DNA of 41,279 bases, taken from positions 1 to 41,279 of the IMG/VR virus record IMGVR_UViG_3300038450_000038; one strand, 5' to 3'. The stretch comes from a virus. This document shows positions 12,575 through 39,130 of the stretch, one piece after another. Position 1 is the first letter of the stretch, and every line of letters begins with the position of its first letter. The notes under the pieces were generated by a model, which was not told where the DNA came from, made no database searches, and saw nothing but the letters and a program-made list of their open reading frames with translations. Position numbers and translations under genes: made by a program.

Positions 12575-12593
12575 CCACCTATAATGGGTCCTA
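12575..12593 (+). repeat. Dispersed motif copy 1
   Basis: CCACCTATAATGGGTCCTA fills most of the 25-bp gap between two genes and ends directly against the ATG at 12594, leaving no ordinary ribosome site there. It is one of eight copies in the window. Confidence 0.75.
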
Positions 12594-13004
12594 ATGTCCA
12601 TACTACTCCCAGTTCTAGCTAGTGTCTTCTTTAGTCTTGCAGCTTTTGATGGCTGGCTAACTCGTCGAAGGATGCATCTCTTCAATGTAGATATTGAACT
12701 TAACCGAGTTATTCACTATCTATGCAAAGTCTGTGGGATCGAACTGGGTATTATGCTTGGACTCATGCTTCCAGCAGCCTGTCTAACCTATCTCTTCTAC
12801 AAGCTTAACTTTACAGTCGGCTTTGCACTTCTAGTCGGCTTCAGAATCAAGCTTTTCATCAATCAGCTTCAAAGTTTCAAACTGGAGAAATTGATTTTAG
12901 CTCAGTTAGGGGGCCGTGGCGCTCCACCCTCCAGCGCCGAAAATGCGGGATCGCAACCCGACAACTCAAAAACGGCCCCCAAAATTTCGCCGGAGGATAA
13001 ATAA
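12594..13004 (+). CDS. Membrane protein, possibly DUF5658-like (136 aa)
   Basis: Residues 1-90 contain three hydrophobic helices (LLPVLASVFFSLAAFDGWLT, a second at about 46-64, a third near 73-85), and an AFDGWLT..VDIELNR segment is reminiscent of DUF5658-type membrane proteins. The tail (about 100-136) is polar, rich in Pro, Ser and Ala, and likely unstructured. The ATG has no normal Shine-Dalgarno: the motif CCACCT..GGGTCCTA abuts it. A family match is suggested from memory only. Confidence 0.6.
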   Translation: MSILLPVLASVFFSLAAFDGWLTRRRMHLFNVDIELNRVIHYLCKVCGIELGIMLGLMLPAACLTYLFYKLNFTVGFALLVGFRIKLFINQLQSFKLEKLILAQLGGRGAPPSSAENAGSQPDNSKTAPKISPEDK

Positions 13005-13309
13005 TGATCTATTCTGCTGAAGATAGAGCTAAACTAGTAGCTGAAGTCTTCGACAAGGATAAAGTAGTTCTCATATGCTCGAAGCACAAGTGGGCATATG
13101 GCACCAAGCGACCGCCTGTATTTGGCTGTAAAAAATGCCAAATGGCCTCGTTTATGGGACTTATGTGCAATATTCCTCCTGCTCGACGATTGGAAGTTCT
13201 TGAGATGCTTGAATATAGCGTCCATCATCTTGTTGAAGCTGAGGAAAACGGCACGATCAATGATATTATTTTGAATAAACATCCAAAGGTTACTGTCGAA
13301 AAAGGATAA
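13004..13309 (+). CDS. Zinc-binding hypothetical protein (101 aa)
   Basis: The start overlaps the upstream stop (TAATG) with GGAGGATAA before it. Cysteines and histidine in LICSKHKWAYG and FGCKKCQ (about residues 25-45) form a C-x2-H..C-x2-C site. The helical C-terminal half contains LEMLEYSVHHLVEAEENG. It is probably a small regulatory or virion-associated phage protein; function unknown. Confidence 0.6.
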   Translation: MIYSAEDRAKLVAEVFDKDKVVLICSKHKWAYGTKRPPVFGCKKCQMASFMGLMCNIPPARRLEVLEMLEYSVHHLVEAEENGTINDIILNKHPKVTVEKG

Positions 13310-13313
13310 GTAC

Positions 13314-13625
13314 ATGGCACGTTTTGCAAATATTCTCATTCCTGCAAGTGAAGGAACCGCGAGGGTGGCGGTTAGTGCGAATTCTACTTCAGCTAAATTG
13401 CAGTTAGGAGCCAATCGTATCTTTGTAATCAATTCAGACCATGATGTTAACATTACGTTTGGTGCGAATGCTACGATTACAACTCCTGATGCTACAGCTT
13501 ATCGAATTCCCGCAAATCAGCAAACAACCTTCGATTTAGGTTCAGCTAGCGACACTATTGAACTTTTCAATCCCTCGCTTACACTAACGGCAAATGTCTT
13601 TATTCAATTGCTTTCAGTACAATAA
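13314..13625 (+). CDS. Small virion-type beta protein, paralogue A (103 aa)
   Basis: This protein and the next share the order and wording of their segments: (A/I)LIPAS at the start, IFVINSD, ITFGA, a YRIPANQQTTFDLG block (near residues 63-76) and a final IQLLSV. They are clear tandem duplicates. The fold is predicted to be a beta-sandwich, as in small decoration or fibre-anchoring proteins. No enzyme motif is present. Confidence 0.65.
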   Translation: MARFANILIPASEGTARVAVSANSTSAKLQLGANRIFVINSDHDVNITFGANATITTPDATAYRIPANQQTTFDLGSASDTIELFNPSLTLTANVFIQLLSVQ

Positions 13626-13637
13626 AAAGGAAATAGT

Positions 13638-13958
13638 ATGTCTCGATATGCTTCGATTTTGATTCCTGCGAGTAGTCCTTGTGTCAACATCCCTGGACTT
13701 GCCTATCATACGGTTTCATCCCCTGTTACAACCTTGGGATATCACGGTATCTTTGTTATCAACTCAGATCAAGATATTTCTATAACATTCGGAGCAGCGG
13801 CCTCGATTGCGACACCAACTGCGACCTCCTATCGCATTCCAGCCAACCAGCAAACAACTTTTGATCTGGGGGCAGCGAGTGATTCTTTGTTGATCTTTAA
13901 CAATGCAGCAACTTCAGTAGCCGCAAATATTTGGATTCAAAAACTCTCGGTGGTTTAA
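13638..13958 (+). CDS. Small virion-type beta protein, paralogue B (106 aa)
   Basis: The second member of the tandem pair has the identical core YRIPANQQTTFDLG and a matching IFVINSDQDISITFGA. The first 30 residues differ most (CVNIPGLAYHTV), so the N-termini may contact different partners. It is separated from paralogue A by 12 bases containing AAGGAAATAGT as ribosome site. Confidence 0.65.
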   Translation: MSRYASILIPASSPCVNIPGLAYHTVSSPVTTLGYHGIFVINSDQDISITFGAAASIATPTATSYRIPANQQTTFDLGAASDSLLIFNNAATSVAANIWIQKLSVV

Positions 13959-14098
13959 TTAAATGCTACCGCCCCTGGTGCAGTCATACCGATGCTCTGG
14001 GATTAATTTCAGTTTCACAACTTTCAACGATTTTTTGTTGTGATCAATCAGACGACGGGTGGACATAGTCTCATCTTTGTGAACTAAGGAAAAAGGTA

Positions 14099-15835
14099 AT
14101 GAGTATCTTTGGAACACCGGTATTTAGTTCGGCGGCAGGATGGAGTTCGGGGAGTCTGTCGTCTAGCTCGCTTAACACCAATGTTGGTGACTTGATCGTT
14201 GCATATGTATCTGGTAACGCAATTACTCCGCCCTTTAGCGTTCAAGATACTGCTGACTCGATTGCTTACACACCGTTGACGCTGCGCGTTAGTTCTGTTG
14301 ATGGACGTGATGGGCAGTGGTTCTATCACATCGCGACGAAAGCAAATGCGGCCAACACTGTAACCGTTACTTTTACTACTCCATACGCTATTGATGGGTT
14401 ACTTGTTTGGGATGTTCCGATTACAGGCGGTACTCCAGCGTATGATGTAGACACCGATTTTCAAGTAAATGCGGCATATACAAATCCCGTTTTGTCGCCT
14501 TCGTTCAGTACGGTGGGAACGGATGAGATTGTTTTCGCGGCAATGGACGACTCATCACGCGGCGGTGGTGGTTCTTGGACTCAGGGTTCAGGTTACACGC
14601 TTGGCGGTGTGACGTCGCCGTACGGCGAGAACGCTGGAGAGCATCAGATATTTAGTAGTCCGCAAACGGGAATCACAGCATCGTTCGTAGGCAGTTCGTA
14701 TGGGCAGGTAGACGTCACTGCGGTAGCGTTCAAACTTCAAGAAACTTGTTCAACGCCGAGCTTCAGTCCAAACAGTTGCAATCAAGGACCGTCTTGTACA
14801 GTTACGGCAACTTCTACCACTGGCTCAACGATTTGGTATACGACGGATGGTACGACTCCAACTGTCGGCGGTGGTGGTACAACTTCATCTGTCGCTAGTG
14901 GTAGCACAATCTCAATCTCAAGTACGACAACTGCAGTCAAGGGAGTTGCGGCTAAGACAAACTATTCTAATAGCTCCGAGGGAGATTCGGGTACTTATAC
15001 AATCAACGGCGCCGTAGCGACTTGCACTTTCTCTCCTGTAGCGGGTGCTTATGACCCGGCACAAACTGTCAGCATCATAAACACTAACCACACTCTGTCT
15101 GGTTTCCAGATTTACTATACCACGAATGGTGATACGCCTGACAACACAAAGTTTGCGTATACTTATGGAACCACGATTCCAATTAGTGCGTCTTGCACAC
15201 TTAAGGCTATAGCTTACGCGACGAACTATTCCAACAGCGCGGTTACTTCAGCAGCTTACACAATCACATACACGATCTCAGGCAATGTTGGGCTTACGGG
15301 GAGTTTGGCTACATCGACTTCAGTGGGTTGGACTGGCAACAATAGTACGAGCGGAAGTGTCACTCCAGCATCTGATGGTAGCTATTCGATTACAGGTTTG
15401 CTTTCTACCGTAACGTACACAATCACGCCAGTCAAGGGCACGTATTCGTTCACCCCGGCGTACCACGAAGAAACCATCTCTGCAGCAGACGTTACAGGCG
15501 ACAATTTCAGTGCAACTTATCTTCAGGTCGCTACCACGACATTCTCTCCTGTTGCTGGCACCTATACAAGCGCTCAAACAGTCACATTTAACAACACGAA
15601 CTCCAGTTTGTCCGGGTTCCATATGTATTGGAATACAACTGGTTCTCCAACCACGGGTTCAACTCTTTATACAGGCCCTATTACGGTCAGTGCAACAGAG
15701 ACAGTCTATGTTCTTGCCGTCGCTACGGGCTATGCCAACAGCGCAGTCGGTTCGGCAGCGTATACAATAGGACTTGCTCCTGCACCAACTATCGCGCAGT
15801 ATATCCATCCTATGCACCAACTCGCGCAAGTGTAA
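14099..15835 (+). CDS. Multidomain surface protein with Ig/chitobiase-type repeats (578 aa)
   Basis: Residues about 1-215 form a Ser/Gly-rich beta domain with VTVTFTTPYAIDGLLVWDV. Then come three modules of the chitobiase/beta-hexosaminidase C-terminal type (about 216-300, 301-395, 478-560), each reading FSP..(G)AY or similar, IYYTTNGDTP, and A(I/V)A..YSNS. Between the second and third is a carboxypeptidase-regulatory-like module (TYTISGNVGL..TPVKGTYSFTP). Such modules bind sugars or stabilise adhesins, so a head fibre or accessory adhesin is likely. GC-richer codons than its neighbours suggest acquisition. Confidence 0.75.
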   Translation: MSIFGTPVFSSAAGWSSGSLSSSSLNTNVGDLIVAYVSGNAITPPFSVQDTADSIAYTPLTLRVSSVDGRDGQWFYHIATKANAANTVTVTFTTPYAIDGLLVWDVPITGGTPAYDVDTDFQVNAAYTNPVLSPSFSTVGTDEIVFAAMDDSSRGGGGSWTQGSGYTLGGVTSPYGENAGEHQIFSSPQTGITASFVGSSYGQVDVTAVAFKLQETCSTPSFSPNSCNQGPSCTVTATSTTGSTIWYTTDGTTPTVGGGGTTSSVASGSTISISSTTTAVKGVAAKTNYSNSSEGDSGTYTINGAVATCTFSPVAGAYDPAQTVSIINTNHTLSGFQIYYTTNGDTPDNTKFAYTYGTTIPISASCTLKAIAYATNYSNSAVTSAAYTITYTISGNVGLTGSLATSTSVGWTGNNSTSGSVTPASDGSYSITGLLSTVTYTITPVKGTYSFTPAYHEETISAADVTGDNFSATYLQVATTTFSPVAGTYTSAQTVTFNNTNSSLSGFHMYWNTTGSPTTGSTLYTGPITVSATETVYVLAVATGYANSAVGSAAYTIGLAPAPTIAQYIHPMHQLAQV

Positions 15836-15844
15836 GAGATAATT

Positions 15845-18094: not shown

Positions 18095-18098
18095 TAAA

Positions 18099-18341
18099 AT
18101 GACAAAATATACCGCAGCAGGCGGATCGCCAGTTCTCGATCCTGCCCATTCTGAGAATCAAAGTGAAGAACTAAATCTCCTGGGCGCTGTTGATATGCCT
18201 ACTGTCGGTTCCAGTATGACCTGGAAGCTTGATGGTGGTAGTCTCAGCCCGTCTGTTGGAGAGAGTGACCGTCACCCCGAAAAGGAAGTAATACACATCA
18301 GAACGGAGGTCCATAGCGATGGCGATTGCCCCTGTTCGTGA
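18099..18341 (+). CDS. Hypothetical protein (80 aa)
   Basis: The ATG at 18099 follows AGGTGA nine bases upstream, five bases after the portal stop. The protein is polar, MTKYTAAGGSPVLD.., and ends in CPCS. Its last 23 bases overlap the next gene's start. It may be a small head-associated protein; no motif is recognised. Confidence 0.5.
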   Translation: MTKYTAAGGSPVLDPAHSENQSEELNLLGAVDMPTVGSSMTWKLDGGSLSPSVGESDRHPEKEVIHIRTEVHSDGDCPCS

Positions 18342-18507
18342 AGAGCCATTGATGACTAATCCCGTTGATCGAATTCAGTTTCGAGAGAAGCTGCCCAAGC
18401 TTACTGAGCCTCAGATTCATGTTCCAAGGGCTCGTGGTGTTGCTCAGACTTTCTCGAACGCCCAAGGTACACATTTTCAACCAGGATATTTCAAGCCTGA
18501 ACAATAA
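18319..18507 (+). CDS. Hypothetical protein (62 aa)
   Basis: GGAGG stands nine bases before the ATG at 18319. The product MAIAPVREEPLMTNPVD.. is Pro-rich and polar, without helices of length or metal-binding residues, ending in FQPGYFKPEQ. It is likely a short extended virion peptide by position between portal and scaffold. Function unknown. Confidence 0.5.
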   Translation: MAIAPVREEPLMTNPVDRIQFREKLPKLTEPQIHVPRARGVAQTFSNAQGTHFQPGYFKPEQ

Positions 18508-18526
18508 AAATAAAAGGAGCATTACA

Positions 18527-18742: not shown

Positions 18743-18766
18743 AATCAGTCTCGGAGGGAGACTCTT

Positions 18767-19165
18767 ATGCTTAAGCGATTGCTTGCTTGGCTGGAACCAC
18801 AGTCAAACATTGTATATCGAATAGTAGAACTACCTGAGCAAAGGACCCATTTATCAGGTGGGGATGCTGAAACTCGTTCGTCTATCGCCACACTCTCTTC
18901 GCATCCTGGATTCGTTGCACTTCTTAATAGGTTGGCTGTCCAGAATGCAGCTTTGAAAGGGCGATTAGATCATTCATTTCATAAGGACTTACGAGAAGTT
19001 GACATCCTCCAAGCTGGTGTTTTTTGGTCAAACTGGCTCAGGTCAGAACTCGAACGCGCCACTGTCGGAGCACCACAAGGACGGCAAGTTGATCCAATGG
19101 AAGAAGAGTTGGCAGCTTTCCGGGCTATTGATGCTCAGATAGAGCGAGTTGGAGAGGGTGAATAA
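18767..19165 (+). CDS. Hypothetical helical protein (132 aa)
   Basis: GGAGGGAGACTCTT precedes the ATG. The protein is helical (MLKRLLAWLEPQSNIV.., then LLNRLAVQNAALKGRLDHSFH), with an acidic C-terminal helix MEEELAAFRAIDAQIERVG. Its position just before the scaffold suggests a head-assembly factor or connector. A long-spacer copy of the dispersed motif lies within the coding region on the opposite strand. Confidence 0.55.
   Translation: MLKRLLAWLEPQSNIVYRIVELPEQRTHLSGGDAETRSSIATLSSHPGFVALLNRLAVQNAALKGRLDHSFHKDLREVDILQAGVFWSNWLRSELERATVGAPQGRQVDPMEEELAAFRAIDAQIERVGEGE
18841..18861 (-). repeat. Dispersed motif copy with 6-bp spacer
   Basis: On the minus strand CCACCT and TGGGTCCTT are separated by GATAAA instead of the usual four bases. 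It lies inside a rightward gene and faces away from the copy at 19177-19194. Confidence 0.5.
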
Positions 19166-19176
19166 GTTTCACAGGA

Positions 19177-19194
19177 CCACCTAAAAGGGTCCTA
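19177..19194 (+). repeat. Dispersed motif copy 2
   Basis: CCACCTAAAAGGGTCCTA lies in the 91-bp gap upstream of the scaffold candidate. This copy lacks the base before GGG and is also embedded in an AGGACC/GGTCCT stem. The rest of the gap holds no gene. Confidence 0.7.
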
Positions 19195-19256
19195 GTTGTT
19201 AGTCAAGCAGCCACAAGCTGCAAAGAAGTAAATCTAAAGTCCCACAAGGAACACAG

Positions 19257-20189: not shown

Positions 20190-20192
20190 ACC

Positions 20193-20209: not shown

Positions 20210-20216
20210 AGGTACA

Positions 20217-20402
20217 ATGTTAAATCAGTTTCTTTCCCTCGTCGGGATGCTACTTGGTATCGGTGATGATGTTGTGACGGTCGTTACTGGCACCACGGGT
20301 GTTCCTGGCGCTGCTGGTTCACTTGCGAGTGACCAACAGGTTTACTTCTCGGCCAAGTTGCTCGAAGTTGCGGTCTTAATGACTGTGCTGGATCAGTTTG
20401 GT
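20217..20402 (+). CDS. Major capsid protein, N4-gp56 family, exon 1 (residues 1-62)
   Basis: This exon encodes the N-terminus of the main head protein, ending VLDQFG, with a segment VYFSAKLLEVAVLMTVLDQFG that matches the start of N4-gp56-type capsids. The frame runs on to a TAA at 20457 if unspliced, giving a useless 80-residue product. The 5' splice site is placed after U20402 because GUUUGGU (20396-20402) pairs fully with the internal guide GCCAAAC (20415-20421), ending in the required U-G pair. Confidence 0.85.
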
Positions 20403-20972
20403 AAATTTCTTATTGCCAAACCTAAATCTCTTCTAAATACCTTGGAAACCCTAAGTTAATAGGGTAATCAGAGGCAAGTGACGTGAATCAAATTGAATTG
20501 GCTACCCTCGCGGGGTTCTTTGCTGGAGAAGGTAGTTTGACCATCTCTGGTGGAAAATTGCCAACGCTATATGCAGCAGTCGGCAACACAGAAAGAATTT
20601 GGATTGATTTGTTTCATTCAAATTTCGACGGAACATGGTATATCGAAAAACCAAAGTATCAGGGTGCAAAGAACATCTTCCGTTGGCGTGTTGCTGGTAA
20701 TCATGCTGTGAAATTCCTAACAGCGATTCAGCCTTATCTTGTGGGCGAGAAGGCAGGTCAGTTGAATTTAGCATTAAAATTTCAATCTATTAAAAATAAG
20801 ATTGAAAATCGCAATGCTGGATTTTCTACTGAAACCCGTCTCGAATTAGATAAGTGCCGCGAAGAACTTCGCAATTTACGTCGTACAGCCGCAGAGACTA
20901 ACCGAAGAGACGCTACACCCCTAGCGAAGTGATAGTCCGAACCTGTAAGTAATTACAGAAAATGGTCCTACG
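20403..20972 (+). ncRNA. Group I intron in the major capsid gene (570 nt)
   Basis: Readable pairings: P1 20396-20402 with 20415-20421; P10 CUUAUU (20409-20414) with the 3' exon GAUAAG (20973-20978); P3 UCUCUU (20427-20432) with AAGAGA (20905-20910); P7 GACUA (20896-20900) with UAGUC (20933-20937); P8 CGCUA/UAGCG (20911-20915, 20922-20926); P9 CUGUAA/UUACAG (20943-20958) with a GUAA tetraloop. The last base is G20972. P4-P6 were not resolved and must lie around the endonuclease ORF. The exons join in frame. Confidence 0.88.
20483..20932 (+). CDS. LAGLIDADG homing endonuclease within the intron (149 aa)
   Basis: The GTG at 20483 follows a GAGGCAAG ribosome site. The N-terminus reads LATLAGFFAGEGSLTI, a LAGLIDADG helix with the catalytic acid as Glu16. 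Only one such motif is present, so the enzyme should work as a homodimer that cuts intron-less capsid alleles and spreads the intron. The last 20 codons and the TGA stop also encode the ribozyme P3, P7 and P8 strands, so the C-terminal tail NRRDATPLAK is set partly by RNA structure. Confidence 0.85.
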   Translation: MNQIELATLAGFFAGEGSLTISGGKLPTLYAAVGNTERIWIDLFHSNFDGTWYIEKPKYQGAKNIFRWRVAGNHAVKFLTAIQPYLVGEKAGQLNLALKFQSIKNKIENRNAGFSTETRLELDKCREELRNLRRTAAETNRRDATPLAK

Positions 20973-21809
20973 GATAAGGATCCGATCCCCTCGAACTCTT
21001 CCAAGACGATTCAATTCAACCGCTTGGAAAAGCTTTCAACTTCAACAACGCCGACTCAGTTGACTGAAGGTATTCCACCGGATGCCATCGGTCTTCAGAT
21101 GTCACAATATCAGGCAGTTGCAGAACAGTATGGTATAATTCTGCGGTTGTCTGATCTTGCAGAACTCACGTCGAAGCATGACGTGGTTGGTCGAGCACTC
21201 TATGTTCTCGGCTTGCATGCTGCGGAAACGTATGATATCTTAATCTTCAACGTTCTCGCTGCTGCTAGCAACGTTTATTATCCCAATAGTAAGACCTCTT
21301 CGGCAACTCTAGTAGCCAGCGATAAGGTTGGCTATGTTGATCTTACTGCTCTCCATGCAAACTTGATGGATCAAGGCGGACGGCCATTTGATGATGGCGA
21401 TTATGTGTTCGTTGTTGCTCCACAGGTTAACGCTTCAATGCTGCAAGACCCAGACTTCAAGGCTTCAAACCAGTTCGGCAAGCCCGAGCGAATTTGGCGC
21501 GGTGAGGTCCAGGAACTCAGTGGTTGGAGAATCGTCAAGACGAACGCCCCAGGATTTGCCTATGTAGCTCAGACGACTTCAGGCTATGCTGACAAGGTGT
21601 TCTACAGCTTTGCAATCGCACGGAATGCTTATCAGATTTCTGATTTGCAGAATCTTCGTGTGTATGCGGCTGCCCCTGGTGGACAGACTGACGTTTTGCA
21701 ACAGAACCGGAAGATCGGTTACAAGTTCGCTTTCAAGGCGATCATAACCAACCAGAACTGGATCACGGCAGTTATCAGCGCTGGTCAGAATACCAAGAAT
21801 CACGCGTAA
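20973..21809 (+). CDS. Major capsid protein, N4-gp56 family, exon 2 (residues 63-340)
   Basis: It begins DKDPIPSNSSKTIQFNRLEKL, the basic KTIxFxR motif typical of N4-gp56 capsids, then LTEGIPPDAIGLQMS, VAEQYGIILRLSDLAELT and AAETYDILIFNVL, in family order. Joined to exon 1 the seam reads LDQFG-DKDPIPS, with no missing or extra residues compared with intron-less relatives as I recall them. The spliced protein has 340 residues, a normal size. A strong terminator follows. Translation of exon 2 alone from internal TTG is not expected. Confidence 0.9.
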   Translation, partial: DKDPIPSNSSKTIQFNRLEKLSTSTTPTQLTEGIPPDAIGLQMSQYQAVAEQYGIILRLSDLAELTSKHDVVGRALYVLGLHAAETYDILIFNVLAAASNVYYPNSKTSSATLVASDKVGYVDLTALHANLMDQGGRPFDDGDYVFVVAPQVNASMLQDPDFKASNQFGKPERIWRGEVQELSGWRIVKTNAPGFAYVAQTTSGYADKVFYSFAIARNAYQISDLQNLRVYAAAPGGQTDVLQQNRKIGYKFAFKAIITNQNWITAVISAGQNTKNHA

Positions 21810-25212: not shown

Positions 25213-28200
25213 ATGCCTGATACTACTATTGAACCAGTCAATGTCGGATACACCTGGATAGACAGGACTGGACAAACATATCGGTTCAAGCGCAGGACTT
25301 GGATTTCTGCGGGGCAGGATGACTGGACTAAGCCACCCGCTCAGAATCCTGATATGTGCCAACAATTAACGAATATCCTTCCCCCGCTAACTAGTGTGCT
25401 CCAGCGAAGGTTCGGATATGCTCGTTTCTTCCCTTGTGTAGATACGGGCCTTACTTCTGGTGCCGATCACGTTTCGGCTCCGTCCACAGCTATCTTTGCA
25501 GAACGAATGATGCTGTATGCATGTCAGGCTGCGTCTATTCGAGCCCTGATTGCCTACTGTGCTGATGGAACCGGTGTGGCTTCATCTACAAATACCATCT
25601 CATACTGGAATGCGGCTGGTGCTCTAACTAATATTTTTACTCCCTCTGCTGGAGCATCTATTCCATTCCTAATCAACTCCCGAGATTGGGCATATATGAT
25701 AGATGGTATTCCTGCTGATAGGAAGAAGTGGAACTATCTATATGGCCTTTCAAACTGGGGGATAGCTGCTCCTATTACACCGCCTAATATAGCTGTAACT
25801 GCTTCTGGTATATCCGGTGCATGGTCAGCATCTACAGTATCTTCAACGTTTGGTATAACAGTTGATACTAATAATAACGTTCAGCAACTTGTAAGTGTTA
25901 ATGCAACTGGAAACAATACTGGTGGAGTGGTTGGAACTAGTGGTCCGGGTTCACCTAATTGGAATCAAACCCCAGGTGGAACGACCTCAGATAGCCCTAT
26001 AACCTGGACGAACAAAGGTCCGATTGGTATCTGGATACAGAATCACTTCTACGATGAAGGCCACTATAGTTACGGAACAGCAGCTAATCCAGCCATAATT
26101 TATGATCCTGAAACCCAGGCTCTCTACTTTAATAATCAAGGTGGTGGTGGAACATCTGGAGCGACCTATCCTGGATTCAATCCTACAGTTGGGGCTATTA
26201 CACCAGATGGTACTGTTCGTTGGGAATTTCTAGGATTCATTCAGGTTGGAACAACTCCTGCTCCTGTTACTGGTGCTTGGGCTCCCTCAACATACTATAT
26301 GACATGGGGAGCTACCAACAATTTCCAAACTTGCGCCGTAGTAGAACCGACCAGTCCTTTTGCTGCCTACAACCCCACAACGAATGCTTTCAATCAACCA
26401 GTTTATCTCCAAGCTGCGACCGTTGGTGGTACAACTCCGGCTACTGAATCTGGCTTGTATTGGGCACCTACAGCCGGGCAATATACAGATGATGGGCAAC
26501 TTCGCTGGCTGAACATGGGATTGAAGACATACCCCGCGCATACACCAATAGTTGCTTGGACACCTGGATCAACAACCTTTGCTGTTATTAAAGATACGAA
26601 TGGTAATATAGAAGTCTGTATAACTGGTGGAACAACTAGTGCCTCTGCTCCAACATTTCCTACTCCTTATACTGCAGCCACTTATGGCACCACTACTAAT
26701 GATAGTGCAAGCATCGTATGGAGTATTGTAGGTCCACCAGTAGCTTGGGCAGCTTCTACTAAGTGGTTTCTACCGGCTGGTGGATTTATTCCTCCTGCCT
26801 CTACATCCCAGTATGGTGGAGTAACCATAGTTGATTCAAGTAACGACATTGAAACAGTTGTTATTTCTGGAAAGACTGGTGCTACAGAACCAAGCAGTTG
26901 GGCCGCAGTTGGTTCGACTACTGTTGATGGTGGTGTGACATGGTTTGCTGTGGCTGTTGCTAGTACGACTTCTGGAGCTATTTCTCTCGTTACAGGGCGA
27001 TACTATTATGTAGTCTTTGTCAACAGTGTAACTGGAGATATCAGCGATCTCTCTCCCCTTTCAGCTTTTACTGGAGAGATAACAGATGGGGGAGTTCTAC
27101 TCTATAATATACCTGTCTCACCTGATTCCCAGGTAGATCAGAAGATCATACTCGCCACCGCTGATGGTGGTGATACAGACACTCTGTACTTCCTAGCTGA
27201 GATTCCAAACTCTCAGACAACTTATTCTGATACGACACCTGAACCAACGCTTCTTGAGAACAATGTCTATCAGTACACAGATTCAAATGGTGTGGATCAT
27301 GGAGTTGTTGGAAATTGGCAGCCACCTGCTAATGGGTCCTATCCTATAGTTCATCGTGGCCGACTCTTCATGGCTAATGGGCAGTCTCTTTTCTTTAGCA
27401 AGAGCCTGGATGAACTAGTTACATCTACTGGAATCATCGCTGGACGTTATGAGGAAGACTGGCCACCTGGGAATGTCATCAACATTTCAAATTCAGCCGA
27501 AGAGATTCATGGCTTGCTGAGTGATGGGATAACTCTCTATATTGGAACTGAGAACTCAATTCGACGCTTGACTGGCACCAGTGCATCAGACTTCTCTACA
27601 CCTGATGTTCTCTTTGAAGAAGTCGGATTGCTGAACCAACAGGTTTGGCAGACTATCTTCCTAGAGGGAACACCAGTTGGAACAATGTGGATGACTCCGG
27701 ATTTCAGGGTCCTTGGTGGCGACTTCACAACTTATGATAATGTAGGACGCCCTATCCAGAGTACATTGAACACCATCAATGTTAACGCCGCTCAGAACTG
27801 TTGGGCTCAATTTGCAAGTAATGGAACATACAATTTCTATATTCTAGCTATTCCAACTGGAACCAACACTGTTCCTGATACTCTCTGTGTATTCGATACT
27901 CAACTTAAGAAATGGTATGTGTGGCAATGTGCGGATTCGTTCTCAACTGGAATATTCTATATTAGCTTGTTTGGCATTCCACGCTGGATTATGATTGACG
28001 CGAATGGTATAGTTCGGCAGTTCGGTCCTAACTATGTAACAGATAGAGCCGATACTACACCCATTGGAATTACAAGCACTATCAAAACATCATGGCTAGA
28101 TTTAGGAGATGCTGGTTCTCACAAGGTTCTCAATCAGATAGAACTTGAAACATCTGACCCTGGATTGCTTACCACTGTTCAAGGCGCTTCTCTAGCGTCT

Positions 28201-28410
28201 GAATTCATAACACCCGTAAATGCTGCTGTAACTAATGCTCCTTTGGTCTTATCATTATTCGGAGATTATATTGTTCCGCTAGCAGGAACACTAACTAAGA
28301 ACAAGTTTTTCCAGTTTACATTCACATCGAAATCTTCACTAGCTAGTCTTCCGACTGATACAATTCTTGGAAGTCTGACTATTGAGATTATTCCTATCAA
28401 CAGATTCTAA
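25213..28410 (+). CDS. Tail tubular protein B-like nozzle protein with inserted repeats (1065 aa)
   Basis: The start (WISAGQDDWTKPPAQNPDMCQQLTN.., to about 190) and the end (about 690-1065, HRGRLFMANGQSLFFSK, GLLSDGITLYIGTENSIRRL) match nozzle proteins with beta-propeller folds. Between them are about four repeats (about 197-595), each with a W-x-(P/A)-S/G opening, a gnxx(E/Q)-type strand, GTTs..P, and DG/DS..(V/L)xW closings. These resemble carbohydrate-binding modules. A fibronectin-like unit follows (about 600-685). It may bind host glycans while sealing the tail tip. Confidence 0.75.
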   Translation: MPDTTIEPVNVGYTWIDRTGQTYRFKRRTWISAGQDDWTKPPAQNPDMCQQLTNILPPLTSVLQRRFGYARFFPCVDTGLTSGADHVSAPSTAIFAERMMLYACQAASIRALIAYCADGTGVASSTNTISYWNAAGALTNIFTPSAGASIPFLINSRDWAYMIDGIPADRKKWNYLYGLSNWGIAAPITPPNIAVTASGISGAWSASTVSSTFGITVDTNNNVQQLVSVNATGNNTGGVVGTSGPGSPNWNQTPGGTTSDSPITWTNKGPIGIWIQNHFYDEGHYSYGTAANPAIIYDPETQALYFNNQGGGGTSGATYPGFNPTVGAITPDGTVRWEFLGFIQVGTTPAPVTGAWAPSTYYMTWGATNNFQTCAVVEPTSPFAAYNPTTNAFNQPVYLQAATVGGTTPATESGLYWAPTAGQYTDDGQLRWLNMGLKTYPAHTPIVAWTPGSTTFAVIKDTNGNIEVCITGGTTSASAPTFPTPYTAATYGTTTNDSASIVWSIVGPPVAWAASTKWFLPAGGFIPPASTSQYGGVTIVDSSNDIETVVISGKTGATEPSSWAAVGSTTVDGGVTWFAVAVASTTSGAISLVTGRYYYVVFVNSVTGDISDLSPLSAFTGEITDGGVLLYNIPVSPDSQVDQKIILATADGGDTDTLYFLAEIPNSQTTYSDTTPEPTLLENNVYQYTDSNGVDHGVVGNWQPPANGSYPIVHRGRLFMANGQSLFFSKSLDELVTSTGIIAGRYEEDWPPGNVINISNSAEEIHGLLSDGITLYIGTENSIRRLTGTSASDFSTPDVLFEEVGLLNQQVWQTIFLEGTPVGTMWMTPDFRVLGGDFTTYDNVGRPIQSTLNTINVNAAQNCWAQFASNGTYNFYILAIPTGTNTVPDTLCVFDTQLKKWYVWQCADSFSTGIFYISLFGIPRWIMIDANGIVRQFGPNYVTDRADTTPIGITSTIKTSWLDLGDAGSHKVLNQIELETSDPGLLTTVQGASLASEFITPVNAAVTNAPLVLSLFGDYIVPLAGTLTKNKFFQFTFTSKSSLASLPTDTILGSLTIEIIPINRF
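27322..27341 (+). repeat. Dispersed motif copy with 5-bp spacer
   Basis: CCACCTGCTAATGGGTCCTA, inside the nozzle-type gene, has one extra base in the spacer compared with most copies. It encodes residues near 704-710, not a conserved protein repeat. Confidence 0.6.
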
Positions 28411-30926: not shown

Positions 30927-30935
30927 AGGTTATCT

Positions 30936-31571: not shown

Positions 31572-31580
31572 GGAACGAAT

Positions 31581-32849
31581 ATGGGCAATGATACTATAGA
31601 CTACGGATATAATCCTCTTAATTACCTACAGACCATGATGCCCCAACCGGGCCCTCAGGGTGGGACTGCACCTGCTAATATCCCTCCCAGTGTAGCTCCA
31701 TCCCCTTCTACTCCCTCACAGCCAGGTGGACAGTTTGATTTTAGTGGCATGCTCGATCAGTATCGGCAAATGGCCCAACGAGCATACCCAACGAATCAAA
31801 TGTTTGGGAATACTCAATTTGGTCAAAACCATCCACGTCTTGCTGGAGCAATCAACAATGCATTCATGGCTGCAGCTATGACGAAGCCAGGAATGACTAT
31901 TGGGGAGAATATCTCCAATGTTGCTGGTGGTGTTTTAGGTGCTCGTCAAGCACAACGCGAGCAATTACTAAGACAACAGATGTTACCCTATCAGATGATT
32001 GCTCCACAGATGGAAATGCAGAAGACGAGTGCTGAGATTGCCAATCTCCTAAGCGAACCAGCTTGGAGACATTCTATTCAGAACAGAGAATTGACCCAGT
32101 CTGAATGGTACGCTCGCAGAGTCCAACAGCCCAACTCCGAAGAACAGAGAATGGGCCTCGCTGCTTCTATGGCCGGGATCACAAATTGGGATGGCGACTA
32201 CAGAAAGCTATCTCCAGACCAAGCTCAGGCTATGGGTAAGGCTTTAGATCAGCTTACTGAGCGCCAAGCGAATGCTATGGCTGGTGGTGGCCTAACTCCT
32301 GGACATATTGTTCAGATGCAAATGAGTGATGATCCAAAGATTAAGGCTCAGGGAGATCAAGCAGCTAAACTATATACAGGTATGATGGGTCAGGTTGCTG
32401 GTACTCGTACTGGTGCTGAACAAGCTGCTCCACATCCACAAGCAGACATGGATAAGTTCATTGATACTGAGAAGGCTAACTATCGTAATCTACTTCCTCC
32501 CAAGCAATCAGAGGAAGAGTTTAGTAAGCTCGGTATGAACCAGTTTCGTAATGCTGCGGATATTCACAAAGACTACCTAGACCAAGTTGAATCTGTATAT
32601 GATGCTAAGGTAACTCTGATGGATAAGTCCTTCGCTCAGTGGCAAGCTAGCACTGCACCACAGCAAAGAATCGGATTCCGAGAGTATCTAGATAATCGTG
32701 AGAAATATCCTCCGGCTGCTGTAGCTGGTGCTAAATCTCAGAAGCAAGGACCCACTACAGGTGGGCCACAGTCTTTCTCGACGTTCATGGCCGGTCGCAA
32801 TAAAAAGAACAATCCGCCAGCATTAGTCGCTCCTACACCGGGGTCCTAA
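31581..32849 (+). CDS. Internal virion-type protein (422 aa)
   Basis: A Pro-rich disordered start (to about residue 50, ending SQPGGQF) leads to an Ala/Met-rich helical part (RLAGAINNAFMAAAMTKPGM, GGVLGARQAQREQLLRQQM) and further Gln-rich helices, a style seen in podoviral ejection proteins. No enzymatic motif is seen. The stop overlaps the start of the 1976-residue gene as TAATG. An inverted copy of the dispersed motif lies near its 3' end. Confidence 0.6.
   Translation: MGNDTIDYGYNPLNYLQTMMPQPGPQGGTAPANIPPSVAPSPSTPSQPGGQFDFSGMLDQYRQMAQRAYPTNQMFGNTQFGQNHPRLAGAINNAFMAAAMTKPGMTIGENISNVAGGVLGARQAQREQLLRQQMLPYQMIAPQMEMQKTSAEIANLLSEPAWRHSIQNRELTQSEWYARRVQQPNSEEQRMGLAASMAGITNWDGDYRKLSPDQAQAMGKALDQLTERQANAMAGGGLTPGHIVQMQMSDDPKIKAQGDQAAKLYTGMMGQVAGTRTGAEQAAPHPQADMDKFIDTEKANYRNLLPPKQSEEEFSKLGMNQFRNAADIHKDYLDQVESVYDAKVTLMDKSFAQWQASTAPQQRIGFREYLDNREKYPPAAVAGAKSQKQGPTTGGPQSFSTFMAGRNKKNNPPALVAPTPGS
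32746..32764 (-). repeat. Dispersed motif copy, minus strand
   Basis: On the minus strand it reads CCACCTGTAGTGGGTCCTT, inside the 3' end of the 422-residue gene. It faces away from the plus-strand copy at 33062-33080. CCCAC/GTGGG also makes a five-base inverted repeat here. Confidence 0.7.
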
Positions 32850-35800
32850 TGACTCAACAGCAGCAACATGATTATACGCAAGACAAGGACTTCCTAGCTG
32901 CAAAGCCAGAAGATCAACGGGCATACTTGCTCGCTAATGATCCTGACTTTGCCAAGGCTGGTGCTTCAGATCAGGAAGTGTACCTTGCTCACTTGAGAGG
33001 GCAAGCTCTCTCTCAAGCTCCTGCACATCAAATCTTAGCTGCACCATCTACTTCAATAGCCCCACCTAAAGTGGGTCCTGGTATTTCGCAAGGGCCTACA
33101 ATGGGTGCGGCTCCTTCACCTTCAATCTATGACCGATTGACTGCTACTGTTGCAGATTCAGCGGTCGGTCGAGCCCTTCAATCTCAACTACCCTCAGTGT
33201 CTAAAGCCCTTGGACTTGAGCCAAGGGAAACTGTCTATTCTCCTTCTTATCAGCAACATGCCGAACAGCTTATAGCTCCTGAACAATTCCTGTCTCCAAG
33301 CGAACAGCGGAAGCACCCTATGATCACTGGCACACTTCAGATGGCTGGTGGGCTATCTACGCCTGAGAACATGCTCCTAATGTTAGGATTGCCGCAATCA
33401 AAGCTCATTAGTTGGGGCTTCACTGCTTCTATAGCTCATGGGGTATTGCAACAATCTCCACAGTTTATGGCAGCTTGGAAAGCAAATGACATTCCCGAAT
33501 GTCAACGTATTGCTACCCAGATGCTCGAAGGAGCATGGATGGCAAAGCTTTCAGCCCAACATGCCATAACTGGTGGCCCTAAGCTTTCGTCATACGAAGA
33601 GTTTATCAAGAGCGCCCCATCTGGTGAACGTGCTGCCTATGAAGCTGCGGTTAACTATGCTGGTGCTCAAGGTGTCGGTGGGCCTGATGTTGGATGGCTC
33701 CAATCGAGAACTCGCATAGATCAAGGCACTCGTAATGTTTCAGCAGAACGGGCTGACTCATTTTCTAAGGCACCGCCTGTTGAAGCTAGGTCCGCTGCTG
33801 TAATCGAGCGACCTGAAGCTAAGGAAGCTCCCGTTCCAGCACCACCGTCCCAGAGTGTCTCTGCCGTTCCAATCCCAGAAGTCATAGCTCCACCGCGTCC
33901 GAGAGTTTCCCGAGTTGAAACAGCGGCTCTACCAGAAGCTCTGCGTCCTGGTGCGGCTTTAACACCTAAAGATGTAGTCGAGGCAGGTGGTGGTGAGTAT
34001 CTTGGTAATAGTGATGGATATGTGTGGTTCAACTCCCCAAAGACTCGTAGCACATATCTACTTCCTGAAAAGGATATAACGCCAGAAGGTGTGAAGGCTC
34101 ATATTGCTGAGAAGGATGCAGCGTTTGTCAAAACGCCGGAAGCTGTTCAAGCTCCTGAACCTATTCCAACTCCTGAAGCTAAAGCTCTACCTGAGCCTAT
34201 TCAGGATAGTATAACGTCCCTCGCTGAGACTCGTGCGAAGTTCGCTGCTCCTGTTATTGATGTCGAAAAAGCCAAAGCAGAAATTGCTGCTGACTTTGGT
34301 AAGCTTAGTAGCACTGAGCTTTTTGACATGCGTAACCAGCTTGCTGATGTGGCGGATAAGACTGGTAAACAAGCAGATTTTATTAGGCAAGCAATTGATA
34401 TAGCCCAACGGGGTGCCGACCAACGTAGATTGATGGTTGAAGAGAAGGCTGTTGGCTATACCAAGGAAGGCTTTCAAATTGACCCTGAGACTGATAAGAT
34501 TATTCCAGTAGAACGGCATGCAGATGTTCGCGTTCTTGGTCGAAGTTTGCGATCTGTAGCAGTTGGTCAAGTGCCAAGAGTTACGCCAGACATGTTAGAT
34601 TATAGTCATACTAAAGTCCCTGGTATGGATGATACTGCTAGGATTGCCTTCTTAGAGAAAATGAAGCAGAACGTCGTCGAAAGATACAACAAGCTTCGTG
34701 ATGATATTACCATTGCTGGAGATACAGGGGCAGATTGGGAGACTTCTGGTATAAATAGTCGGATAAATGAACTGGAAAGGGATGCTAGAGCAATCGGCAA
34801 ATTCCCCTCAGACATTACACATGGTCGCCGACCACTTCAGCCTGTTGTTAATCCTGATGGCACAGTTCGTGAAATGGCTCCATATGAGGACATGAACCTT
34901 AAGCGTGCCTCTCAAATAATGGGCCGTAAGGTTCATACTATCCCCACTAACGAAGAGTTAGAAGCAAGAGCCAATGAACTGAATCAGCGAGCCAAACTCC
35001 ATCAGTCACTCGTAGATACAATTGATGACATCATCGCCCGTCGTGGCAACAAGGAACGTGGGGCTGTTGGAGTAAAAAATGTTCAATTCCCATCAGCCAT
35101 TCCAGTTGAAGAACAAGACTTCTCTAGCGGACATATATTTGAACGTGCAGCCGCTCTTGGACTGGAGCCTAAAAAGGTAACGTTTGACAGCCCACCCGGA
35201 CAAGATGGCTGGCTCTCAGCTGATGGGAAAGTATATATTGGCAGTGGACACGGCCAGAGCCACAATGCAATTGCTGCTGCTCTACTGCCTGAAACTGACA
35301 AACTTGGCAGCGCCATGCGTGCCATGCTAGATAATGGATGGCTCCGTGTTGTTAGTCCTACTGCATTTGAAGCTTGGAAACTTGATCCTAAGACTATAAG
35401 TACGATTGAGAATGCAAGTTGGTGGTATGGTTCCAACGGTCATGCGATGGTAATTGACACTCGTGGACCTGATCGTATGCATTCTCTTATGCTTGATGCT
35501 GGATGGGAAAATCTTTCACAGGAGATTGCTAAGCAAAGGAACTTCCTAAAGATTCCTGAAGAGGCCGGTGTCGCTCGTGGCATAGAGATAATGGGTGGAA
35601 TGGGCCTTGGTGGGGTTGCTGGAGTTGCTGCTGGTGGGGCGCTTGGCGGCGCTCCTGGTGCTGTTATTGGAGGAACAGTTGGAGCGTTCCTTGGTGCGGT
35701 ATCGCCAGCCCTGATGCATCTTAAGCCAGTCCGTGAAGCCTTTGGTAAGATAACACCGCTTCTTAACATGCATGATATAAGTCTCAAAAGCTGGCTTGAA

Positions 35801-38779
35801 GGTCCTAAGCAGGAACCTGCTATCAATCCTGATATGCGGGAGATTCAAGCTAAGCAACAGCGCAGTATGGCCGGACCAGACTTTGATTTTACCAAGCGGC
35901 TTGTTCAACTTCCTGGAGAGATACAGCGCAAGCTGATTGATAGGTTCGTCTTTGTTAATGACCATCCTGGACCACTCAACAACCTTATCCTGCGCCTAAT
36001 CAAAGCCCCAGGTCAAGCCTTCCGAGACTTGCGTGGTAACCTAAGCGTTGATGATAGCCCTTATGTTACTATCCGTAGCGCTCTTGGCCTCAGTGGTGGT
36101 GCTCAAGCCATGCATAACCTTGGCTATAGTAAAATCATTGAGGAAGCTCAGAAGGGTGGCATAGCTAATTATCTCTATGAGTATCTAAATCTTAAGGGTG
36201 GATTTGAACGAACCTATGATATCCTAAACGAGCGGTTAGGCCGTGCCAAATCTGATATACAGGATATAAACACCAAGCTTCAGGACCCCAATCTGAGTAT
36301 TCGTCAGAAGGTTGCTTTAGAAGATGATCTTGCTGAGGCTAAAGCTGTGCAAGAGCATATGGAGTATCGTATTGGCTCTGGTGAAGCCACACCTATGGGC
36401 TTCACTCCTGAGAAGACTCAGAGAGCTTTGGGGGATATGCAAGCCATTATCTCGCCTGAAAAATTTAAGGCTGTTACTGATCTTGCCAATCGGGTATTCG
36501 ATCAGAACAGAACGATTCTGGATATGATCCATCAGAATGGTCTGATTGGAGATGATGAGTACCAAACTTATATAGCTCGTGGTAATGAATACATCCCCAT
36601 GACGCGCATCATGGATGATATGAGCGCGAACACTCTGAGATTCCAAGGAAAGGAATCTCCATACTACCTGCGGCAACAGAATGTTATCAAGGCTCTGGAA
36701 GGTAGCGAGCGAGTTCCCAAGAATCCTATTCAGGCATCAGCCGATGCCAATGGTGAAGCTATCCGTGAAGTTGTTCGCAACAACGTCATCGGAGACTTCC
36801 TCAAGCTGGCCCATGACGATCCAAAGGGTGTTGGTTCCTACTTTACGCCTGTCTCCGCAGACTACAAAGCCAAGGCAGGTGAAGCTCTAGTTGGACACTA
36901 TGAGAATGGAGTTGTAAAGACCTATTCTGTTCCAGATTGGTTAGGTCAAACACTTCAGAACGCATCTCCTATTACGAATGATTTAATGGGTGGAGTAGTG
37001 GCAAGATGGACGGCACAAGTTCTCCGTAAGGGAGCGACTGCTGGTAATCTTGCTTATACTTCGATGCGTGCAATACGAGATACGATGGGCGCTGCAATTC
37101 TCTCAGAAGGTGGTATTCGAAAGGAAACACCTTTAAAGGACATTCAACAACTCGGTACTCTGTGGGCCAAGAATCTATATGAGTCTTTATCAAAAGGTCC
37201 AGCATGGCAAGAGTATATGAAGTCTGGTGGCGCATTTGGTGTTCTCCAACGGAATATTACACCCGATCACTTCATCAGCTTGGACAACCTTGGTTGGACT
37301 GGTAAGCTTGCTAAGGGACGGATGATAGATACTGTCTCTGATTTCAACGCAGCAATGGAAGATGCCATCAAGATGACACACTTCCAGCGGCTACGTGAGA
37401 TGGGATATAGTGTTAAGGCCGCTCAGTGGGAGATGCGTAGATATGGTGGAGCACCTGACTATTCTCGTGCTGGTGAGTTAGGTCCTGTAGCTAACTTGCT
37501 ATTCATGTTCTTCAACGCCAAGTTGCAGGATACAACTCGTGTATTTGCCAAATTTGCTGAGAATCCTGCTCGTATGTCCGTGTTCCTTGGTGGCTTAACA
37601 GCAATGGCTATGACTTTAGCCGAACATAACATTCAGCAGAAGGATGAGAATGGCAAGCCGCTAATGCCTCGTGTCTCTGTTGGAGATCGAGAGCGCAACT
37701 TCTGCTTCCTGACTGGCCAAACCTACCAGTCTTCATCGGGCGCGACACTCCCCATCTACTATAAGATTCCCAAGCCTGATGTTGTCAGAATCTTAGTCAA
37801 TCCTATAGAGAACACTCTTAACAAGCTTGGTGGAAGAGAGACTCGTTCAGGTGAACAGCTTGCTCTAGATGAAATCTCTGGTATGATTCCTGGACAGTTT
37901 GCTTTGAAAGAAGGTCACCTTGGAAAGACTGCTCTACAGGGCGCTGCGTCAGCTTTGAATCCTGCACTTCGTATTCCTGCTGAACAGTTTATGAACTATC
38001 AGTTCGCCGGGACTGGTGGGCCTATCGTCCCTGAACGCGAACAAGGAATTGATCCAAGATATCAGTATGGTATTGGAACCAGTGCAGTTGCTAGGACTAT
38101 GGGAGAAGGTGGACTTCCTGGTGCGGGTGCTGGTGCGGCTATGGGAGGGGCTATGGGTGGGATGTATTATGGTGTGCCGGGTGCTTTGGTTGCAGGTGGA
38201 ATCGGAGCTGCTGTTGGCGCTGCTGGTCTATCTCCACGTAGAATAGATGCCTTCATGCGGGGTACAACGGCTGGTGCGGGTGAGATTGCTACTACTGCTC
38301 TTGATCCCTTTATGGGCCAACGAACTAAGGAAGTTCAAGGTCCTGAAGCTTGGAGACAGCAGCCGGGTATAGGGCCAATCATCTCCCGATTCGTTTCCTC
38401 ACCAATGGATCAGCAAGAGCATGATCTACAGGATAGATTCTACAACAACATTGATAAGGTAACTCCAGCTTATAAGACATTCAAGGACTTAGAGAAGCGC
38501 GATCCTGATGAAGCTGGTAGATATCTAGCCGCAAATAGGGATAGTATTCAGAAGGGTTCACTGGCAGTTAAGATGCAGGAAAAGTTAGCTTACATCAATT
38601 CTATGCAGCGACAGCTTGAACAGAATCCTCAAGTCTCGCCACAGGACCGACAGAAGTATCTCAAGAACATGCACGATGCCAAACTTAACATTCTTCAGGC
38701 GTTCGTCGGGATTCTTGAACCAACTCCAAGCGGCAATGTGAATACTGGCTGGAGCCCAATGGGGACGACGGCTAAGTAG
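32849..38779 (+). CDS. Very large internal virion / polyvalent-type protein (1976 aa)
   Basis: It starts with a small helical repeat (FLAAKPEDQRAYLLANDPDF) and a long Pro/Ala-rich linker (about 270-350), then helical and mixed domains. Glycine-zipper membrane-active stretches occur at about 907-955 (GGMGLGGVAGVAAGG..) and 1751-1793. A block near 1387-1417 (VLRKGATAGNLAYTSMRAIRD) resembles the LPD38 domain of phage polyvalent proteins. This fits a DNA-ejection protein that crosses the envelope. No RNA-polymerase, protease or lysozyme motif could be seen. Exact domain borders are uncertain. Confidence 0.7.
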   Translation: MTQQQQHDYTQDKDFLAAKPEDQRAYLLANDPDFAKAGASDQEVYLAHLRGQALSQAPAHQILAAPSTSIAPPKVGPGISQGPTMGAAPSPSIYDRLTATVADSAVGRALQSQLPSVSKALGLEPRETVYSPSYQQHAEQLIAPEQFLSPSEQRKHPMITGTLQMAGGLSTPENMLLMLGLPQSKLISWGFTASIAHGVLQQSPQFMAAWKANDIPECQRIATQMLEGAWMAKLSAQHAITGGPKLSSYEEFIKSAPSGERAAYEAAVNYAGAQGVGGPDVGWLQSRTRIDQGTRNVSAERADSFSKAPPVEARSAAVIERPEAKEAPVPAPPSQSVSAVPIPEVIAPPRPRVSRVETAALPEALRPGAALTPKDVVEAGGGEYLGNSDGYVWFNSPKTRSTYLLPEKDITPEGVKAHIAEKDAAFVKTPEAVQAPEPIPTPEAKALPEPIQDSITSLAETRAKFAAPVIDVEKAKAEIAADFGKLSSTELFDMRNQLADVADKTGKQADFIRQAIDIAQRGADQRRLMVEEKAVGYTKEGFQIDPETDKIIPVERHADVRVLGRSLRSVAVGQVPRVTPDMLDYSHTKVPGMDDTARIAFLEKMKQNVVERYNKLRDDITIAGDTGADWETSGINSRINELERDARAIGKFPSDITHGRRPLQPVVNPDGTVREMAPYEDMNLKRASQIMGRKVHTIPTNEELEARANELNQRAKLHQSLVDTIDDIIARRGNKERGAVGVKNVQFPSAIPVEEQDFSSGHIFERAAALGLEPKKVTFDSPPGQDGWLSADGKVYIGSGHGQSHNAIAAALLPETDKLGSAMRAMLDNGWLRVVSPTAFEAWKLDPKTISTIENASWWYGSNGHAMVIDTRGPDRMHSLMLDAGWENLSQEIAKQRNFLKIPEEAGVARGIEIMGGMGLGGVAGVAAGGALGGAPGAVIGGTVGAFLGAVSPALMHLKPVREAFGKITPLLNMHDISLKSWLEGPKQEPAINPDMREIQAKQQRSMAGPDFDFTKRLVQLPGEIQRKLIDRFVFVNDHPGPLNNLILRLIKAPGQAFRDLRGNLSVDDSPYVTIRSALGLSGGAQAMHNLGYSKIIEEAQKGGIANYLYEYLNLKGGFERTYDILNERLGRAKSDIQDINTKLQDPNLSIRQKVALEDDLAEAKAVQEHMEYRIGSGEATPMGFTPEKTQRALGDMQAIISPEKFKAVTDLANRVFDQNRTILDMIHQNGLIGDDEYQTYIARGNEYIPMTRIMDDMSANTLRFQGKESPYYLRQQNVIKALEGSERVPKNPIQASADANGEAIREVVRNNVIGDFLKLAHDDPKGVGSYFTPVSADYKAKAGEALVGHYENGVVKTYSVPDWLGQTLQNASPITNDLMGGVVARWTAQVLRKGATAGNLAYTSMRAIRDTMGAAILSEGGIRKETPLKDIQQLGTLWAKNLYESLSKGPAWQEYMKSGGAFGVLQRNITPDHFISLDNLGWTGKLAKGRMIDTVSDFNAAMEDAIKMTHFQRLREMGYSVKAAQWEMRRYGGAPDYSRAGELGPVANLLFMFFNAKLQDTTRVFAKFAENPARMSVFLGGLTAMAMTLAEHNIQQKDENGKPLMPRVSVGDRERNFCFLTGQTYQSSSGATLPIYYKIPKPDVVRILVNPIENTLNKLGGRETRSGEQLALDEISGMIPGQFALKEGHLGKTALQGAASALNPALRIPAEQFMNYQFAGTGGPIVPEREQGIDPRYQYGIGTSAVARTMGEGGLPGAGAGAAMGGAMGGMYYGVPGALVAGGIGAAVGAAGLSPRRIDAFMRGTTAGAGEIATTALDPFMGQRTKEVQGPEAWRQQPGIGPIISRFVSSPMDQQEHDLQDRFYNNIDKVTPAYKTFKDLEKRDPDEAGRYLAANRDSIQKGSLAVKMQEKLAYINSMQRQLEQNPQVSPQDRQKYLKNMHDAKLNILQAFVGILEPTPSGNVNTGWSPMGTTAK
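33062..33080 (+). repeat. Dispersed motif copy 4
   Basis: CCACCTAAAGTGGGTCCTG lies near the start of the 1976-residue gene, within codons for PPKVGPG. It is 316 bp (centre to centre) from the minus-strand copy at 32746-32764. Confidence 0.7.
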
Positions 38780-38868
38780 CTTATCTATATCTATAGAAAA
38801 GTAGATAGCACAAGCCAATAAATTGAATGACTACAGCTATACAGGCGCATACAGTACGAATAGTCTCT

Positions 38869-39102
38869 TTAGTTTTGCTGGACACTTGGTTCCACCTGTA
38901 ATGGGTCCTGAGCTTGTGATTCTAATTTCTTAAGTATAGCTGCACGCTTGGCTTCACGCCATTTCATTTGCTGTTCGTGGCGCTCTCTATGCATACGCCA
39001 GACTTCCCTTTCATAGAATCGAATTTTTTCTCCCTGCCAAACAATCCAAATAAGCAAGATGATTTCTACAATAAAGAGAGTAGTATCTAATAGAGAACTC
39101 AT
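38869..39102 (-). CDS. Membrane-anchored charged-helix protein (77 aa)
   Basis: The start is the ATG at 39100-39102 with TAGGTG upstream. A hydrophobic helix (about residues 7-22, TLFIVEIILLIWIVW) precedes a long charged helix rich in Arg, Glu and Gln (EREVWRMHRERHEQQMKWREAKR..). This resembles an i-spanin or a small membrane-associated regulator. Motif copies lie at both ends of the gene: one inside its 3' end and one directly upstream of its start. Confidence 0.6.
   Translation of the reverse strand: MSSLLDTTLFIVEIILLIWIVWQGEKIRFYEREVWRMHRERHEQQMKWREAKRAAILKKLESQAQDPLQVEPSVQQN
38892..38910 (+). repeat. Dispersed motif copy 5
   Basis: CCACCTGTAATGGGTCCTG lies within the 3' end of the leftward 77-residue gene and points toward the copy at 39112-39130. 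Confidence 0.7.
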
Positions 39103-39111
39103 ATAAACACC

Positions 39112-39130
39112 TAGGACCCTCTAGAGGTGG
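39112..39130 (-). repeat. Dispersed motif copy in a 37-bp divergent gap
   Basis: On the minus strand it reads CCACCTCTAGAGGGTCCTA. It occupies about half of the short space between the start codons of the leftward gene (39102) and the rightward gene (39140), where an operator or promoter would be expected. Confidence 0.75.

Follow-up and report, generated by a model that had tools for sequence, protein, structure and literature searches.

The DNA stretch analysed here (IMG/VR record IMGVR_UViG_3300038450_000038, positions 1 to 41,279; these 41,279 nucleotides are referred to as the window) carries a dispersed bipartite motif, CCACCT-N4..7-GGGTCCT, which recurs, as such or in altered versions, in related phages. 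In these genomes, each strand bears its own evenly spaced set of sites, whose orientation is nearly independent of transcription. We consider it about an even chance that a single phage-encoded protein binds the copies specifically, the likeliest binder being the recombinase descendant encoded at 39140-39778, which would act in a polar way. This could amount to a hitherto undescribed means of controlling or organising a viral genome. The window is an apparently partial 41-kb virus record with terminase, portal, capsid, and tail genes of a podovirus-like, uncultured phage.

A preliminary description of this DNA had listed eight copies of the motif, in and between genes and on both strands, and had stated that such a string is not expected even once by chance. 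All eight copies are present and distributed as described; their positions were right, with the ends off by one base in most cases. Control arrangements of the two halves gave no copies, the reversed pattern had no exact match, and with one mismatch allowed the motif had nine matches compared to none for either the reversed pattern or the swapped halves. An unbiased scan for gapped word pairs ranked CCACCT..GGGTCC(T) top both in the window and in close relatives. The gap between CCACCT and GGGTCCT measures 4, 5, 6, or 7 bases (5 bases in five of the eight copies). Because the flanking sequences differ at each copy, the sites are not fragments of a longer repeat.

The first exact site, CCACCTATAATGGGTCCT (12575..12592, + strand), fills the gap before an open reading frame (ORF) starting at 12594 and shares its spacer word with position 38120 of the related genome G006. 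Antisense within ORF 18767-19165 lies CCACCTGATAAATGGGTCCT (18842..18861, −), and orthologues of this ORF also contain an antisense site in G006 (43975, −) and G011 (35275, +, with the gene on the − strand); CCACCTAAAAGGGTCCT (19177..19193, +) occupies the gap after the same ORF. Three further sites fall within genes, namely CCACCTGCTAATGGGTCCT (27322..27340, +) in a tail-tube-like gene of 1065 amino acids (25213-28410), CCACCTGTAGTGGGTCCT (32747..32764, −) in ORF 31581-32849, and CCACCTAAAGTGGGTCCT (33062..33079, +) in the 1976-amino-acid gene 32849-38779. Between the latter gene and 39140-39778 are CCACCTGTAATGGGTCCT (38892..38909, +) and CCACCTCTAGAGGGTCCT (39113..39130, −), the last being antisense, 9 bp ahead of the 39140-39778 start, and presumably autoregulatory. 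A candidate ninth site with one mismatch, CCACCTGGAAAGGGTTCCT, is found at 9891..9909 (−).

A capsid search of IMG/VR yielded 60 relatives, several as 58-64 kb contigs, while cultured phages gave only capsid matches of <30% identity. One 28-kb record (G024) contains the window's sites in the same order, extends the genome, and adds two further sites. Nine genomes, comprising relatives with capsids at least 73% identical to that of the window, share CCACC-N4..8-GGGTCC (clade 1); each has 5-18 exact copies, compared to none or one for control arrangements. Within the clade, spacing between the halves differs by as much as 4 bp. At the sixth base, the lineage of the window mostly has T, whereas G002, G003, and G011 have C, G012 mostly has A, and G007 shows no fixed base. 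The motif is absent from more distant relatives, whose portal identity is mostly 45-49%, but several have a dispersed motif of their own with the same anatomy in 5-21 copies: CACCAGGC-N-ACCCCTC in G027 (21 copies), TCCTCGC-N-AACGGGGTTAG in G031, G032, G036, and G037 (6-13 copies), CCTACC-taaa-AAGGGGTTCA in G035 (9 copies), CAGCAGCC-N-AAGCCCC in G033 (8 copies), GGCCGAC-N-GGCACA in G029 (9 copies), and TCAACC-N-AAGCCCC in G015 (5 copies). A search in G013, G034, G038, and G039 revealed no clear motif, with G013 giving low-complexity matches only.

Two conserved genes keep the sites in their DNA while codons, frame, and half-site spacing change. At the 27322 site in the tail gene, relatives with ~55% protein identity that encode Gly-Ser use GGG TCC, with the exception of one lineage, and in most of them CCA precedes CCN. 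In the DNA polymerase gene, close to its start, motif-bearing genomes write VPPxxGP as CCA CCN NNN NNG GGT CCN, whereas the codons differ in motif-less genomes. G001 has the left half of the polymerase site shifted by one base and encodes IHP in place of VPP; the motif thereby survives with a spacer one base longer. As judged from these alignments, the sites are a selected DNA-level signal, in which the half-sites are kept and their distance is flexible by a few bases. The preliminary description had named absence of enrichment in relatives and erosion at the neutral rate as signs against a function; the outcome was the opposite, with enrichment in relatives and conservation at the DNA level. 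Two other origins were rejected. An RNA hairpin would rely on ACC/GGT pairing of only 3-4 bp, which the sixth base (T, C, or A depending on the clade) breaks, and covariation was unsupportive; an Rfam scan of the window returned nothing. Insertion of a short mobile element was discarded as in-gene sites arise via substitution.

The candidate binder is a protein of 212 amino acids (39140..39778, +) derived from a tyrosine recombinase, in which the core-binding (SAM-like) domain is kept and the catalytic domain is gutted. It matches Pfam PF02899, the N-terminal core-binding domain of tyrosine recombinases, as well as an integrase family in PHROG, and a profile built from the protein and its relatives matched XerA, XerC-like, XerD, and P2-type integrase structures in the PDB. 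Its AlphaFold2 model is all-helical (predicted local distance difference test score, pLDDT, of 83), with lambda Int and Xer proteins as the best Foldseek matches at modest scores. The catalytic domain PF00589 gave no match in any clade-1 genome, while all 14 control genomes were positive. Versions of the candidate binder are present in 17 genomes. They consist of the core-binding domain only in G031, G036, G037, and G038 and are truncated in G034, whereas others are full-length with altered catalytic residues according to our reading of the alignment (Tyr to Phe in G013, loss of the first Arg in G035, a changed His of HxxR in G027). The G013 protein (L096 12496-13482) is a full-length tyrosine recombinase with Phe at the position of the catalytic tyrosine (ISTTCKF), and its genome has no clear dispersed motif. 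Cultured phages gave no match for the candidate binder, and an alignment-based scan of viral contigs is unsuited to so diverged a protein. Canonical-looking integrases are also encoded in G035 (56893-58143) and G033 (166-1356), so that some members of the group may be temperate.

This protein was named as candidate binder mainly because sites recur on the start of its own gene. In 6 of 14 genomes (G000, G001, G004, G007, G027, and G035), a site overlaps or abuts the start region of this gene, in each case in antisense orientation, and these six sites represent three different motifs. Among other genes, a start site is found in 26 of 703 (Fisher p=1.1e-5). A one-mismatch site at the start in G006 would be a seventh case, and in L117 a site lies ~85 bp upstream. 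The recurrent antisense site suggests autoregulation of the candidate binder gene.

The layout of the sites was analysed in 19 genomes with 205 sites, based on gene calls from a simple script and including some partial contigs. Both strands bear sites in similar measure. The gaps between same-strand sites have a mean coefficient of variation (CV) of 0.44, compared to 0.77 for random placement (p<1/2000), and this estimate should be conservative, as the CV would tend to rise if sites had been missed. Of the same-strand gaps, 3% are less than one quarter of the mean, whereas 22% were expected. Such regularity suggests a function with a direction along the DNA and a reach of several kb; in the literature compared, as far as the sources describe their sites, there is no report of it for dispersed phage sites. 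A possible neutral cause is the loss of direct repeats via illegitimate recombination. For repeats of 11-16 bp, however, such an effect would be expected over short distances, and the scarcity of same-strand neighbours extends to ~3 kb.

Relative to genes, 106 of the 205 sites lie within them (~174 expected) and 99 outside (~31 expected). Those within genes comprise 62 sense and 44 antisense sites (42% antisense), and sites at gene starts are sense and antisense equally. The enrichment in gaps and at gene starts would suit promoters of a phage RNA polymerase starting at GGG, as the preliminary description had proposed. However, the half-to-half distance is variable, by as much as 4 bp, about half of the sites are within genes and many of these antisense, gene-start sites show no preferred orientation, and a search that had no positive control found no single-subunit polymerase, leaving this the least probable of the explanations considered.

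Of 186 pairs of adjacent sites, 137 have their members on opposite strands (p=4e-11). This alternation, a weaker regularity than the even spacing on each strand, exceeds a model preserving that spacing (p=0.0005). Divergent pairs less than 700 bp apart are in excess (21, compared to 7.4 expected), and convergent pairs at this distance, of which there are 6, are not enriched. Alternation and the close divergent pairs could reflect an architectural role, in which the recombinase-derived protein loops the genome between oppositely oriented neighbours, for example before packaging, without controlling transcription. Its ancestry, with synapsis as an ancestral ability, and the position of its gene next to virion genes would agree with this. 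Looping alone, however, would not make each strand regular, and close convergent pairs are not enriched. Moreover, several genomes have lost some or all of the catalytic-domain helices responsible for synapsis. We regard architecture as the sole function as rather unlikely, although it stays ahead of the remaining alternatives; nucleoid or packaging roles, which the preliminary description had also raised, are possible.

Alternating orientation is also a feature of pdif (XerC-XerD) modules of Acinetobacter plasmids, which have bipartite sites of the recombinase type. Xer/pdif-type sites that allow inversion or exchange of modules would account for two half-sites around a centre of 4-8 bp, for the partial inverted symmetry ACC..GGT, and for a recombinase relative encoded nearby. 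Here, in contrast, the clade-1 genomes are without a PF00589 domain, although a host recombinase might act instead; the centres differ between copies, neighbours share a centre no more than by chance, and sites lie within conserved genes that show no module boundaries. Recombination sites of this kind are thus very improbable. In G027, three divergent pairs in short gaps (42602-42720, 44578-44741, and 49555-49661) have identical centres and form perfect 17-bp inverted repeats; across all genomes, pairing of sites with a shared centre was not significant and was dropped as a feature.

The strand-specific spacing would further suit a strand-specific event such as nicking, with the motif marking single-strand interruptions at intervals on each strand, comparable to those of T5, the phiKMV-like phages, and Pseudomonas phage tf. 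In tf, 14 nick sites are reported, some of them on start codons, and the phiKMV-like consensus is the bipartite CGAC-N5-CCTACTCCGG (PMC3517423). The sites described here resemble these in being dispersed, similar in number per genome, bipartite as in the phiKMV-like phages, divergent between relatives, and in part located on start codons (PMC3517423). The known localized nick sites are, however, described as confined to one strand (PMC3517423), whereas the present sites occupy both. In addition, the half-site spacing is variable, no nickase was identified, and the link to the start of a recombinase-like gene would be left unexplained, so that nicking appears improbable, if less so than recombination.

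The closest precedent for a recombinase descendant acting on dispersed sites is MrpR (YopR) of Bacillus phage SPbeta, reported to have a tyrosine-recombinase fold without recombinase activity, to bind the repeated element SPBRE, and to repress lytic growth; its authors expected a wider occurrence of such recruitment (PMC10516654). The protein encoded at 39140-39778 likewise belongs to the tyrosine-recombinase family without catalytic residues, and an element is repeated across the phage genome, with the protein as its candidate binder. By analogy, the system looks like a more reduced and more diverse instance of MrpR/SPBRE. MrpR is described as keeping the catalytic domain in its fold, whereas here this domain is gutted or gone, and its ~10 sites as lying in promoter regions, whereas the present sites are enriched in gaps yet about half are within genes. 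In further contrast to SPBRE as described, the sites occupy both strands, are regularly spaced on each, and differ between related clades.

Stoperators of L5 and other cluster A phages provide a second comparison. These are presented as 20-30 asymmetric sites genome-wide, in gaps and aligned with transcription, bound by a repressor that is a two-domain helix-turn-helix monomer (PMC6550527, PMC9283540). In common with the accounts of L5, there are many asymmetric dispersed sites, a consensus that diverges between phages together with the (here putative) binder, and a site at that binder's own gene. In contrast to L5, transcription has little bearing on orientation here, and the candidate binder descends from a recombinase, with no helix-turn-helix repressor identified. 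The suggestion of operators or stoperators in the preliminary description stands in part: enrichment in relatives, in-gene conservation of the DNA, clade-specific consensus sequences, and the start site argue for a dispersed phage-specific protein-binding site, but the sites are not a stoperator set of the L5 type, given how little their orientation depends on transcription and given a candidate binder outside the helix-turn-helix repressors.

If the 39140-39778 protein is the binder, it may contact the CCACC and GGGTCC half-sites as a dimer or as a two-domain unit across a flexible A-rich spacer, and would repress its own gene from the start-codon site. Elsewhere, binding would have a polar effect on machinery moving along the DNA, in all likelihood RNA polymerase, for which the protein would be a roadblock or a silencer. 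One site per 5-8 kb in each direction would then suffice, and a second, close site on the same strand would be useless. This would combine the mode of MrpR/SPBRE, a dead recombinase with dispersed elements, with the genome-wide spread of L5-like stoperators. Among roles at the sites, we rank roadblock or silencer first, architecture second, and nicking third. More tentatively, and with clearly less than even confidence, the sites could represent a kind of genome marking new to phages, in which a stripped recombinase core-binding protein sits on two independent, even ladders and provides a polar checkpoint every 5-8 kb in each direction regardless of gene direction, protein and site having co-diversified across uncultured soil phages.

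Several observations weigh against this protein as a polar-acting binder of the sites. About half of the genomes that bear the protein do not have a site at its start; G013, G034, and G038 have the protein and no clear motif, and conversely G029, G032, G033, and G015 have a motif and no detected core-binding protein, which may be because these 31-41 kb contigs are likely incomplete. The clade-1 gene immediately follows one for a virion protein in what is apparently the late operon, an odd place for a lysogeny repressor. The genomes are related, hence their sites are not fully independent, and the consensus for calling sites was chosen from the same data. Moreover, polarity is deduced from spacing alone, and the ratio of 62 sense to 44 antisense sites in genes leaves room for a weak link to transcription.

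Should binding by the candidate protein hold true, the single experimentally known case, MrpR, would be extended to a widespread group in which the recombinase is cut down, sometimes to the bare core-binding domain. The diversification of site and protein into several clades would offer natural material for how such domains choose their sites, and the regularity on each strand would be a quantitative clue to a polar, long-range function.

The gene preceding that of the candidate binder in all clade-1 genomes (32849..38779, +) encodes a virion-associated protein (LPD38) of ~2000 amino acids. No prophage copy was found. The only lead to a host, a weak one, is a Terriglobia metagenome-assembled genome in which a short contig (3 kb) contains a portal relative. 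In a site-poor arm of the phage genome, two adjacent but different TnpB-like genes (OrfB_IS605, Cas12f1-like TNB) are located at 2288-3499 and 3655-4773 on the − strand. The major capsid gene is split (20217-21809). Its N-terminal part, up to VLDQFG, is encoded by ORF 20217-20459 and the remainder by 21024-21809; the ORF between the two (20483-20932) has weak similarity to LAGLIDADG proteins. This arrangement resembles a self-splicing intron containing a homing endonuclease gene, although Rfam gave no known intron at this place. The DNA polymerase I of this group has a uracil-DNA-glycosylase-like domain fused to its N-terminus (L089 10245-12668), and L089 5138-5674 (G011) encodes a phage protein with sigma-70 region 2, whose start is preceded by a motif copy at a distance of 15 bp.
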